Shown here: in pieces, positions 11,818 to 30,126 of the stretch | Numbering within the stretch: the first letter of the stretch is position 1 | Layout: the number at the start of each line of letters is the position of its first letter | IMG/VR virus record: IMGVR_UViG_3300035180_003361 | Location: 1 to 31,828 of that record | DNA: 31,828 bases | Direction: 5' to 3' (one strand) | Origin: a virus | Made by a program: the position numbers and the translations under genes | Notes under the pieces: model-generated | What the model was told of the DNA's origin: nothing | Databases searched by the model: none | The model's input: the letters and a program-made list of their open reading frames with translations, nothing else

Positions 11818-13770
11818 TTAAGAAATTAATGTTTCCGCTACGTTAACCTCTTCTTTTCGAGCGGCTACCTGCCGAGCCACTTTTTCCTGCTTGGCACGAC
11901 TCCTGCGTTGATACCTAGACTCTTGTACAACGTTGATTTCATTATCGTTTTCGTCTTTGCGAGCGGGTACGGCGTTTTCACCATCACCCAGGCTGTCGCG
12001 ATAACGAGCCAACAAATTAGCTGTAGCATTATCCTCTCTGTCCCAAGTTTTTTTACAATTAGAACAAGTGTGCATATAAGTTGAACTATCTAAATTTTCT
12101 TTAGAAGAACATAGATGACAGGTGTAAGATGTTCCCTTTGGATCAATTTTAATTATATTATTGATTCCAAAAGCATTAACTAATGATAATCTTAATTCAC
12201 TTGGAGCTGCTAATGTTTTATTAGATCTTACTTTTTGTAAATCTTCCTTTTCATCTGGTGCAGATTTTTTGGAAACATCACTTATATTGAAATTTTCTAA
12301 AACTAAAGTTTTATATTTTTTAGCTAATTCGCTTGCCTTAATCCTATAAAACTCTTTTCTTCTTCTAATTGCTTTAGTGCGTTGATTACCCTCCCAAGTT
12401 TCTAAATGAAAATCATGATATCTCCAACCATCTAAACCTGTACCATCAATCATTATTTTATTAACTTTATCCCATTCACCCCTTTTACCAAAAATATTCT
12501 CATCACCACTAAATCTATTGTTAGACCATGTTTCTACAAGTTTCGATAAACGAACACAAGATTTCCAATTGGATAATGTTTTTGTTTCTCTTTTAAGCCA
12601 ATCAGGTAAAATTGATTCATTTTTATTTATGAAAAGAGATAATTCATTTTTTATGAAATTAAACTTATCATCTCTTAAGCCTTTTAACTCGCGAGCTTTT
12701 TTAATTCCATCAATGATATATGCTGGTAAATTTACTTCAGCAACATTATTTTTATCATCTCTAGTTTTTCCAAGACGAAAATGGGTTGTATTACCACTAA
12801 CATCTTTCATATCACGCCAGCCAATATCTAGAGCAATTGTATCTGATGTATTAGTAGAAGATTCTGCAACAGCAGACATATCTACTGTAAAACATACAGT
12901 CCATTCTTCTCTTGTTCCATATCGTTTTTTATGAATCGATACCTTTTTAATTACACCACCATCTGGTAATGATCGATGCATAATCATTGGAAATGATGCC
13001 CAAATAGGTTTTGCGCTTTTATCAGATCCAATTCTAATATGCAATACAGTTTTATTATTTTTTCTTCTTTCTGATCTTGAAAAACCATTAAATGCTTTAT
13101 CATCAACCGGATCAATTTTAATGAAACTATGATTTCCAAATATATTTTCACACTTTAATCCTAGAGAAACTGTATTATCATCATTTTTACTTTTTTGTAT
13201 TTGAACTCCAATAGAACCAACGTTATCCCATCTAACAAATTTGGGATCATTATCTTTTTCGCCATCATAAAGAGGCATTTTACGAGTTGCCTCCATAGCA
13301 TCATTAATTAATTGAGCTGTTCCCCAAAATATAGAACGACGGTTATACTCAAATTTTACACTTTCTTTAGCAGCATCATTTATCATTGATAAAGCATTAA
13401 TAATGTAGTGGTCTTGTTTTGCTAATTTTCTCGCTTCAAATAATTGTTTTTTCAACTCTTTTTTATTGGCACGGGCTACCTTTAAATCATCCTTATCTGT
13501 TTTAGTTGAAAATCTTGATCGCATTTGAGAGTGTTGTGATTTGATTTCTTTTGCAATCTTTAACTCTAACTCATCAGCTTCTTTCATTTTTACTTCAAGA
13601 AGTTTTACATTTTGATCAAATTGTCTTGTCACTAATCTGATGAAAAACCTCCTACCCTTTTCGATATCAATAAGTTTATTATGATACCTATGAGCATCTC
13701 TCATTTGAGAAAAAACTAAATCAGCATTTATGGTTGGAGCTAAAATTCCATATTTATAAACTTTAAACAT
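11818..13770 (-). CDS. compact Cas12-like (type V) CRISPR effector nuclease
   Basis: A 650-aa protein next to the CRISPR array. A split RuvC nuclease fills the C-terminal half: RuvC-I TIALDIGWRD with D315, RuvC-II TLVLENFNIS with E492, and RuvC-III in TWDREDNATANLL (575-587). A four-cysteine ribbon (C551, C554, C569, C572) sits between II and III, as in TnpB-derived Cas12 proteins. The N-terminal half has a long charged, probably coiled-coil helix (about 50-120) and no HNH domain. The expected role is crRNA-guided DNA cutting. The size and phage setting resemble Cas12j (CasPhi) and Casλ, but I cannot assign a subtype. In the last 60 residues (basic and glutamate-rich) the DNA is near 50% GC, against about 30% for the rest. 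It has its own promoter (13795-13822) and AAGAG before the ATG. Confidence 0.92.
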   Translation of the reverse strand: MFKVYKYGILAPTINADLVFSQMRDAHRYHNKLIDIEKGRRFFIRLVTRQFDQNVKLLEVKMKEADELELKIAKEIKSQHSQMRSRFSTKTDKDDLKVARANKKELKKQLFEARKLAKQDHYIINALSMINDAAKESVKFEYNRRSIFWGTAQLINDAMEATRKMPLYDGEKDNDPKFVRWDNVGSIGVQIQKSKNDDNTVSLGLKCENIFGNHSFIKIDPVDDKAFNGFSRSERRKNNKTVLHIRIGSDKSAKPIWASFPMIMHRSLPDGGVIKKVSIHKKRYGTREEWTVCFTVDMSAVAESSTNTSDTIALDIGWRDMKDVSGNTTHFRLGKTRDDKNNVAEVNLPAYIIDGIKKARELKGLRDDKFNFIKNELSLFINKNESILPDWLKRETKTLSNWKSCVRLSKLVETWSNNRFSGDENIFGKRGEWDKVNKIMIDGTGLDGWRYHDFHLETWEGNQRTKAIRRRKEFYRIKASELAKKYKTLVLENFNISDVSKKSAPDEKEDLQKVRSNKTLAAPSELRLSLVNAFGINNIIKIDPKGTSYTCHLCSSKENLDSSTYMHTCSNCKKTWDREDNATANLLARYRDSLGDGENAVPARKDENDNEINVVQESRYQRRSRAKQEKVARQVAARKEEVNVAETLIS

Positions 13771-28522: not shown

Positions 28523-29233
28523 ATGCTAATTGCCGTAATCAACGAATCAACTTTAGTAACCAATGAAGATGTTAGAAAGATGACGGGCGCTATTCAAAAA
28601 CAAATGACATGGCACGTATGTCCTGCTTGGAATTCAAAATCTATAACTGTTGCCTTCTATGCTGATAAGACTAAGGTACCAGCTCATGCAGAAGTAGTTA
28701 GCATCTTAGATAACTCTACTCAAGCTGGAGCTTTAGGCTATCACTCTGAAGATAATGACGTTGTTGATGCATTTATCTTTGTCAAGCCAGTTCTTGATAA
28801 CGGAGGAGTTATTCTTCGTGATCCTAAGAATAATCAAAATGTTAGCGTAGCTTCAGTTCTTAGCCACGAAATCTGTGAAATGTTTGGAGATACATTCGCT
28901 AATGGTTGGTCAGATGGTCCAACTCTTAAACAAGGCAGTGCTTATGCTCAAGAATTATGTGACCCTGTTGAAAATGATGCTTATGATATTACTTTAAATG
29001 ATGGTGTTACTTTAGTATCAGTATCCAACTTCGTACTTCCACAATGGTTTAATCCACAAGCAACTGCCAAGGATGCACCATTCGATTATCTTGGTAAACT
29101 TACCAAACCATTCTCTATGACTAAGGGTGGATACATGATCCTTATGAAGGAAGGCACTGTTGCTCAAATATTTGGTGAGCATGTTCCACAATGGAAACAA
29201 GACCAAGTTAAAGCAGAATGGTATAGAAGATAA
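28523..29233 (+). CDS. putative zincin-like phage protein (236 aa)
   Basis: The centre holds VLSHEICEMFGDTFANGW (about 113-130), a helix with HExxE in place of the usual HExxH, followed by YAQELCDPVENDAYDI and FVLPQWFNP. This looks like a metal-binding zincin-type core with aspartate and glutamate ligands further on, but no known peptidase family fits and activity is uncertain. The N-terminus (MLIAVINESTLVTNEDVRKM) is not a signal peptide. AGGAG lies 8 bases before the ATG. It is coupled to the downstream membrane protein by TAATG. Codon use is less AT-biased than in the minus-strand genes, which suggests high expression. Confidence 0.6.
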   Translation: MLIAVINESTLVTNEDVRKMTGAIQKQMTWHVCPAWNSKSITVAFYADKTKVPAHAEVVSILDNSTQAGALGYHSEDNDVVDAFIFVKPVLDNGGVILRDPKNNQNVSVASVLSHEICEMFGDTFANGWSDGPTLKQGSAYAQELCDPVENDAYDITLNDGVTLVSVSNFVLPQWFNPQATAKDAPFDYLGKLTKPFSMTKGGYMILMKEGTVAQIFGEHVPQWKQDQVKAEWYRR

Positions 29234-29515: not shown

Positions 29516-29622
29516 TGGTGGATCTAACCGAGGAGTTGAACCCGACATGAACCTTTACACGGGCTTTATGACGCAAGCATCATTCCCGCAGGTGAATAGA
29601 ACCGTCTATTTTCTTTAGACCC
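29516..29622 (-). tRNA. tRNA-like gene of 107 nt with an inserted hairpin in the anticodon region
   Basis: GGGTCTA (5' end at 29622) pairs with TAGATCC (29520-29526) with one G-T pair, followed by A and an encoded CCA. A D-arm-like segment holds GACGGTTC. Then comes ACCT, an extra hairpin (29559-29589), then GTAA and AGGT, which can pair with ACCT. The hairpin has a GCGGG/CCCGT stem and an ATGATG/CGTCAT stem with a CTTG loop; two of its pairs are G-T in minus-strand RNA only, supporting that strand. The T arm is TCGGG-TTCAACTC-CTCGG (loop of 8). If the hairpin is left out, the loop contains GTA (Tyr). It may be a real unusual tRNA or a decayed one. Confidence 0.45.
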
Positions 29623-29625
29623 ATA

Positions 29626-29827
29626 TTAATTTGCAAGTGCTCTTGGTATGCCACGTAGTTTTACCTTAAACCCTTCAAAGGTTTTTGGAAATTTAACTTT
29701 TGTGTCAGACCATACAATAAGAAAATATTCTTTATCACCCGCTTTAGAAACATAACAAGCCGAACCTACTGATAATCCAGTCTCTTTTTTCTAATTTTTG
29801 AGCGGCAGCCTTTACTTTTTCTTCCAT
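29626..29827 (-). pseudogene. small hypothetical gene broken at a homopolymer
   Basis: ATG 29827 opens MEEKVKAAAQKLEK and then meets an early stop. One base fewer in the A6 run (plus-strand T6, 29795-29800) joins it to ETGLSVGSACYVSKAGDKEY and on through IPRALAN to a TAA at 29626, a 66-aa protein with a plausible beta-rich C-terminus. The lone T6 difference suggests a slippage mutation or a sequencing error. Upstream signal is weak (no clear Shine-Dalgarno). It ends 4 bases from the 107-nt tRNA-like gene. Confidence 0.55.
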
Positions 29828-29849
29828 AATTTACTTTATAATATTTTAG

Positions 29850-29928
29850 AGCGGTTAGACGGAATTGAACCGACATTTTCCAGGACCATGACCCAGACTA
29901 GATTTCTTTTCCATTAGAAGATAACCGC
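29850..29928 (-). tRNA. tRNA with an enlarged (14-base) anticodon loop, identity uncertain
   Basis: Acceptor GCGGTTA/TAACCGC is perfect; D arm TTCT/AGAA has loop AATGGAAA; the anticodon stem TCTAG/CTGGA (29898-29902 and 29879-29883, one T-G pair) sits in the normal place. Between them lie 14 bases, TCTGGGTCATGGTC, instead of 7, with a TGGGTC/ATGGTC near-repeat that suggests a small duplication. T arm GTCGG-TTCAATT-CCGTC has one T-T mismatch. No CCA is encoded. An alternative inner stem (CTGGG/CCTGG) would give a 7-base loop TCATGGT without U33. Confidence 0.6.
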
Positions 29929-29974
29929 ATAGACGACTAAGGTGATGAGATTTTTATTTAAGATCCTCTTCCGA

Positions 29975-30045
29975 GGATCCGAGAAGGATTTGAACCATCT
30001 AGTCAGGCTTGCGACCTGATTTTACCATGTAATCCACATCGGCAT
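29975..30045 (-). tRNA. degenerate tRNA-like sequence with a Cys-type (GCA) anticodon loop
   Basis: A perfect anticodon stem TCAGG/CCTGA encloses TCGCAAG (anticodon GCA, but C instead of U at position 33). The D stem TGATT/AATCA has a bulged G, and the T arm GATGG-TTCAAAT-CCTTC has one mismatch. The acceptor stem pairs only at CCGA/TCGG. A perfect 7-bp GATCCTC/GAGGATC hairpin (29962-29979) overlaps its 3' end. It is probably a decaying tRNA. Confidence 0.45.
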
Positions 30046-30051
30046 TCGTCC

Positions 30052-30126
30052 TGGAGCGACCGAAGGGGCTCGAACCCTCAACCATCTGCTTGGAAGGCAG
30101 AGACTCTACCATTGAGTTACAGTCGC
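30052..30126 (-). tRNA. tRNA-Gly (TCC)
   Basis: Acceptor GCGACTG/CGGTCGC, D arm ACTC/GAGT with AATGGTA, anticodon stem TCTGC/GCAGA with loop CTTCCAA (anticodon TCC), T arm GAGGG-TTCGAGC-CCCTT, discriminator T and an encoded CCA. It is canonical throughout. Confidence 0.95.

Follow-up and report, generated by a model that had tools for sequence, protein, structure and literature searches.

The 107-nt element that runs from position 29622 to 29516 (minus strand) of a 31.8-kb virus record (31,828 nt, the window analyzed here) is a real tRNA-derived feature, and it is best read, judging by sequence and predicted fold, as a derivative of tRNA-Ala(UGC) whose anticodon arm is about 9 bp too long. 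The RNA should be chargeable by AlaRS, given its G3-U70 pair, because AlaRS reads the acceptor and not the anticodon. By tRNA geometry it should not decode as drawn, because about 9 bp too many separate the anticodon from the CCA end. Our preferred explanation, which we hold tentatively, is that the element is an extra tRNA-Ala(UGC) copy that no longer belongs to the decoding pool and is most likely falling into disuse, on its way to becoming a relic. It is known from one contig only.

Fold and alanine identity signals of the element

The first-pass annotation had placed a tRNA-like RNA with a pairing acceptor and an encoded CCA at this position and on this strand, and all of this was borne out. 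The acceptor 5' strand GGGUCUA(A), which contains G3 (29615..29622, minus strand), pairs with the 3' strand UUAGAUCC, which contains U70 and leads into A73 and the encoded CCA (29516..29527, minus strand). GGGUCUA/UAGAUCC is paired at 7/7 positions (probability 0.96-0.99 for pairs 1 to 7), with an eighth A-U pair added, and A-CCA follows; the element has the 7-bp acceptor and 3' NCCA of tRNA (RF00005). The two other arms are less regular. A D-arm-like hairpin, AAUAGA-CGGU-UCUAUU (29595..29610, minus strand), lies 2 nt off the canonical position and can also be read as an 8-nt, GG-containing loop closed by a 4-bp stem. The T-arm-like segment UCGGG-UUCAACUC-CUCGG (29528..29545, minus strand) has the T-loop motif UUCAA, but its stem needs an 8-nt loop or a mismatch and its pair probabilities are low (0.39-0.71). 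Hence, of the plausible D and T arms described earlier, the T-loop motif stood, while the D arm lies 2 nt too far in and the T stem departs from the norm.

The minimum-energy fold (-28.9 kcal/mol) combines the 7+1-bp acceptor and the D-like hairpin with the long, bulged arm ACCU-GCGGG-A-AUGAUG-CUUG-CGUCAU-AAAG-CCCGU-GUAA-AGGU (29550..29593, minus strand), in which ACCU/AGGU, GCGGG/CCCGU, and AUGAUG/CGUCAU pair to give about 15 bp versus the normal 5 bp. Its energy is unexceptional (z of -1.2, with 30/200 shuffles equally stable). The 11-bp two-part hairpin noted at first reading, with a CTTG loop and two G-U pairs, was recovered as 5+6 bp; in the partition function the CUUG hairpin pairs have probabilities of 0.93-0.97 (0.64 for the outermost) and GCGGG/CCCGU reaches 0.93. 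The hairpin is not a simple replacement of the anticodon loop, since its tip, CUUGCGU (29571..29577, minus strand), holds the Ala(UGC) loop core C32 U33 U34 G35 C36. The relatives have CTTGC in four Ala(tgc) genes of normal shape, and ARAGORN, in its relaxed reading, also names TGC as the anticodon; we estimate the chance of CUUGC falling at the tip by coincidence at a few per cent for a 30-nt insert. In the tRNA register the 7-nt loop CUUGCGU would hold U33, but its probability is about 0.02 and the best fold forms the CUUG tetraloop instead, so that the 5-bp anticodon stem with a 7-nt, U33-containing loop is absent. The two added strands of the arm pair with each other over 9 bp, and the "inserted hairpin" is best read as the Ala anticodon arm pushed outward by an extra helix of about 9 bp. 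The GTA seen beside the hairpin is there, but not in a 7-nt loop with U33, and is incidental.

Among the 179 unique CCA-ending tRNAs of the clade, G3-U70 together with A73 occurs in 6/6 tRNA-Ala and 0/173 others, and the element has both features. As the determinant for AlaRS, G3-U70 also functions when transplanted into other tRNAs (PMC7373986). A covariance model built from the element only (R1) and run over 811 kb of relatives gave four non-self matches, one to another tRNA (20.9 bits) and three to tRNA-Ala (19.6, 14.9, and 12.8 bits), none of them a homologue of the element. The first description of a tRNA-like RNA is therefore upheld to the extent that the element is tRNA-derived and non-decoding as drawn; a tRNA-Tyr(GUA) with an intron-like insert does not agree with the alanine signals.

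Genomic setting and searches for relatives

The window belongs to a huge-phage-like genome and encodes a mito-type PheS, peptidyl-tRNA hydrolase 2, EF-Ts, an RNA ligase, and, judged from translations, NAMPT- and NadM-like proteins. Relatives were gathered via EF-Ts and PheS searches, which yielded contigs of up to 448 kb, several of them with >30 tRNA-model matches each. On one side of the element a small frameshifted frame ends, on the other lies the stop of a convergent 93-aa ORF, and the element exactly fills the space between them. The small frame (29630-29830, minus strand) had no homologue among the fetched loci, and its frameshift reflects decay or a sequencing error. For the ORF at 28523-29233, an IMG/VR protein scan gave zero relatives, and blastn matched the region in several relatives. 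Elsewhere in the window, 11818-13770 (minus strand) encodes a TnpB/Cas12-like protein of 650 aa, whose sole relative in the phage collection, in Virus Rctr197k, lies between two annotated CRISPR arrays.

The element shares its strand with a tRNA-Gly/Y-RNA-like cluster that is conserved in related huge phages and, in several relatives, has the order tRNA-Gly, Y-RNA-like RNA, tRNA-Gly. In the window the first gene of this cluster is a normal tRNA-Gly(TCC) (30052..30126, minus strand). By comparison with relatives, 29850..29928 (minus strand) is a tRNA-Gly homologue that has kept its acceptor and D arm intact, whereas its anticodon loop measures 14 nt and no longer holds a Gly anticodon; several relatives have a normal Gly(gcc) in its place. 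Beside or between the tRNA-Gly genes lies a conserved RNA of about 120 nt (29929-30048, minus strand), with homologues at L006 6479-6602, L007 8479-8605, L009 9647-9771, L010 7665-7782, L011 8780-8900, and L013 123-256. It has a terminal stem GACGA/UCGUC, a D-arm-like GAUUACAUGGUAA, a hairpin, and a T-arm-like hairpin, and 12 predicted pairs show both-sided changes in at least one sequence each. Its ends fit what we take to be the lower-stem motif of bacterial Y RNA (YrlA). It is probably a phage Y RNA missed by Rfam, and ARAGORN miscalls its core as tRNA-Cys. Two relatives encode Ro60/Rsr proteins, L137 643-2367 (G005) and L138 865-2445 (G009), in which TROVE and vWA_Ro60 domains are recognized; the profiles PF25045 and PF05731 score above cut-off, and there is a PDB match to Ro sixty-related protein Rsr (E of 7e-17).

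No homologue of the element was found by BLAST in 13 relative records or in the phage collection, and the relatives contain no syntenic copy. The refuting case named in the first-pass annotation, an ordinary tRNA in relatives of which this copy would be a decayed form, finds neither support nor contradiction in them, since none carries the element. Its acceptor pattern occurs in 45 stretches of IMG/VR, none of which resembled the element on inspection. A covariance-model search, proposed in the first-pass annotation as a check, did not recover the element as a tRNA: RF00005 gave no match at E up to 10, whether 141 nt or 1001 nt were searched. ARAGORN at default settings made no call at the element. 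A relative's tRNA-Pro scores 55.6 bits on the tRNA model despite its insert of about 45 nt, which indicates that the element is hidden from tRNA finders not by its insert alone; its D and T arms deviate too.

Expanded anticodon loops in relatives and competing explanations

A strict four-stem scan of the clade, which replaced a looser scan with many false matches in coding DNA, returned 68 normal tRNAs and 4 with the anticodon loop alone expanded and the other stems perfect (G005 L056 16822, 17299, and 18002 and G009 L085 8213, that is, G009 108213), against 0 expanded D loops and 0 expanded T loops; the scan is small, and its criteria exclude the element. Large anticodon inserts also occur in two more tRNA-shaped genes (G005 L056 2611 and G009 L085 12231, or G009 112231). 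The gene at L056 17299-17420 is an otherwise perfect tRNA-Pro(UGG) with a clean, structured insert of about 45 nt directly after the anticodon, the ends of which duplicate the anticodon-stem strands (CTTGT...ACAAG). That at L085 12231-12367 shows GTG in its anticodon loop; its insert, about 60 nt long, comprises a T arm of its own (GTCCCGTTCGATTCGGGC) and an acceptor-like helix, a nested mini-tRNA. In principle, RNase P/RNase Z could cut this insert out and an RNA ligase could rejoin the ends; the insert resembles the Lak-phage intron that is possibly a tRNA gene in its own right. L056 16822-16904 and L085 8213-8302 are similar tRNAs in distant relatives, possibly of one Ile-like isotype, in which hairpins fill a 15-18-nt anticodon loop and no anticodon is evident. 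At L064 4001-4086 a tRNA has a short tandem duplication in the anticodon arm (GAGTCTACGTAA repeated).

Such inserts raise the question of whether the element is a tRNA with a small intron-like insert in the anticodon loop that is excised and religated to a working tRNA, in the manner of the "enigmatic introns" of Lak megaphage tRNAs (PMC6784885). The RNA ligase in the window and the inserts in the G005 tRNA-Pro(UGG) and at G009 L085 12231-12367 speak for this explanation, which we nevertheless consider improbable. On inspection, no single excision yields U33-UGC or a 7-nt GUA loop: once the hairpin is taken out, neither a U33-containing 7-nt loop nor a correctly placed alanine anticodon remains, and the extra sequence flanks the tip on both sides instead of forming a single block. 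GTA would specify Tyr, at odds with G3-U70/A73, and a spliced tRNA-Tyr(GUA) was rejected on these alanine identity signals and the loop geometry. Rfam gave zero matches to group I/II introns, other intron families, or any other known RNA, which were rejected. No bulge-helix-bulge was seen on inspection, and an archaeal intron of this type was dismissed, since the 5' bulge is missing and EF-Ts and the mito-type PheS indicate a bacterial setting. The earlier suggestion of an intron-like insert finds no support, with UGC at the tip and alanine signals in the acceptor. A quite improbable explanation is that intergenic DNA resembles a tRNA by chance, through a fortuitous acceptor and T-loop motif. 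The fold z of only -1.2 and the lack of a tRNA-model score are compatible with it, but acceptor, CCA, and T-loop motif at tRNA spacing occur at only 0.075 patterns per dinucleotide-shuffled window (0.01 with G3-U70 required). The real window has two such patterns, the element and a true tRNA-Gly. Moreover, the element belongs to a tRNA cluster with the same orientation and takes up the space between two frames, and model R1 matches tRNA-Ala. Very unlikely indeed is a degenerate 88-nt tRNA with a long variable arm, starting at 29603 with anticodon TGC, which ARAGORN reports as "Ala(tgc)" at a relaxed threshold (-ps80); we discarded this type II tRNA, as position 3:70 is a U-U mismatch, its D arm is smaller than a real one could be, and its energy is -5.9 kcal/mol versus -28.9 kcal/mol for the 107-nt fold.

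The remaining alternative is that the element is a functional non-decoding tRNA-Ala body, which might distract or inhibit anticodon nucleases of the host or occupy AlaRS or another tRNA-binding protein; the long arm is proposed to block both decoding and cleavage at the ordinary anticodon loop. From the sequence features at hand we consider this possible but rather unlikely. The intact acceptor with the AlaRS determinant and CCA, the stable long arm, and the relatives' otherwise perfect tRNAs with expansions in the anticodon loop only, together with G005 2611 and G009 112231, favor it. The RNA ligase in the clade and Ro/Rsr in two relatives point to RNA repair or quality control, and it has been suggested that the tRNA-like domain of YrlA may competitively inhibit an anticodon nuclease (PMC7790460). 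That relatives' tRNAs are expanded solely in the anticodon loop (4 versus 0 in the D and 0 in the T loop) makes a selected non-decoding class possible. Still doubtful is the broader idea that the clade might keep chargeable, tRNA-shaped RNAs with anticodon loops replaced or lengthened by structured inserts as decoys or guards against host tRNA-targeting defences, the element being one of them. Against a functional body stand the irregular D and T arms, the absence of a score on the Rfam tRNA model, and the failure to find a homologue in the relatives searched. We regard the copy as most likely drifting in view of its irregular D and T arms and of the tRNA-Gly next to it, which has also lost its anticodon. 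A drifting copy is favored by the T stem with its irregularity and low pair probabilities, the D arm out of place, the lack of a tRNA-model score, the absent homologues, and the altered tRNA-Gly, and the frameshifted small frame beside the element fits local decay, though a sequencing error could explain it. The perfect acceptor argues against decay, as does the 9-bp pairing of the extra strands, which is not readily made by random decay. In its sequence the acceptor stem is intact, with G3-U70, A73, and the encoded CCA, and the anticodon arm measures about 15 bp where 5 are normal and ends in the Ala loop core CUUGC. Were it transcribed along with the cluster, the RNA could be trimmed and then charged by AlaRS, and the charged RNA would be unable to decode.

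Known tRNA-like RNAs and implications

With bacterial and phage tRNA-Ala(UGC) the element shares G3-U70, A73, CCA, the T-loop UUCAA, and the loop core CUUGC; it differs in the arm (about 15 versus 5 bp), the displaced D arm, the irregular T arm, and the length (107 versus about 76 nt). The tRNA-like domains of tmRNA and YrlA likewise have a tRNA body without a usable anticodon, and tmRNA is also alanylated. In contrast to these RNAs, the element lacks an mRNA-like part as well as any signature of tmRNA or Y RNA, and it has no Rfam match. The closest precedent is the Lak megaphage tRNAs, whose genes, likewise from huge phages, contain additional sequence around the anticodon and were described as carrying "enigmatic introns," one possibly encoding a tRNA (Devoto et al. 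2019, PMC6784885). However, the Lak inserts are sequence-conserved and lie in recognizable tRNAs of known isotype, whereas in the element the extra sequence adds to both strands of the arm and there is no known homologue. Mutations in the anticodon loop have been proposed to let phage tRNAs escape the tRNA nucleases of the host (van den Berg et al. 2023, PMC10264068); there too the change is concentrated in the anticodon region, but the mutations were described in decoding tRNAs, and the element could not decode. What is new here is a tRNA-Ala derivative whose anticodon arm has lengthened; huge-phage tRNAs with inserts have already been described.

Why phages carry many tRNAs is a long-standing question. 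If true, charging-competent, non-decoding tRNA bodies would separate "supplying codons" from "fooling tRNA-targeting defences." Because the loop expansions in otherwise perfect tRNAs of this clade are confined to the anticodon loop, the idea is testable.
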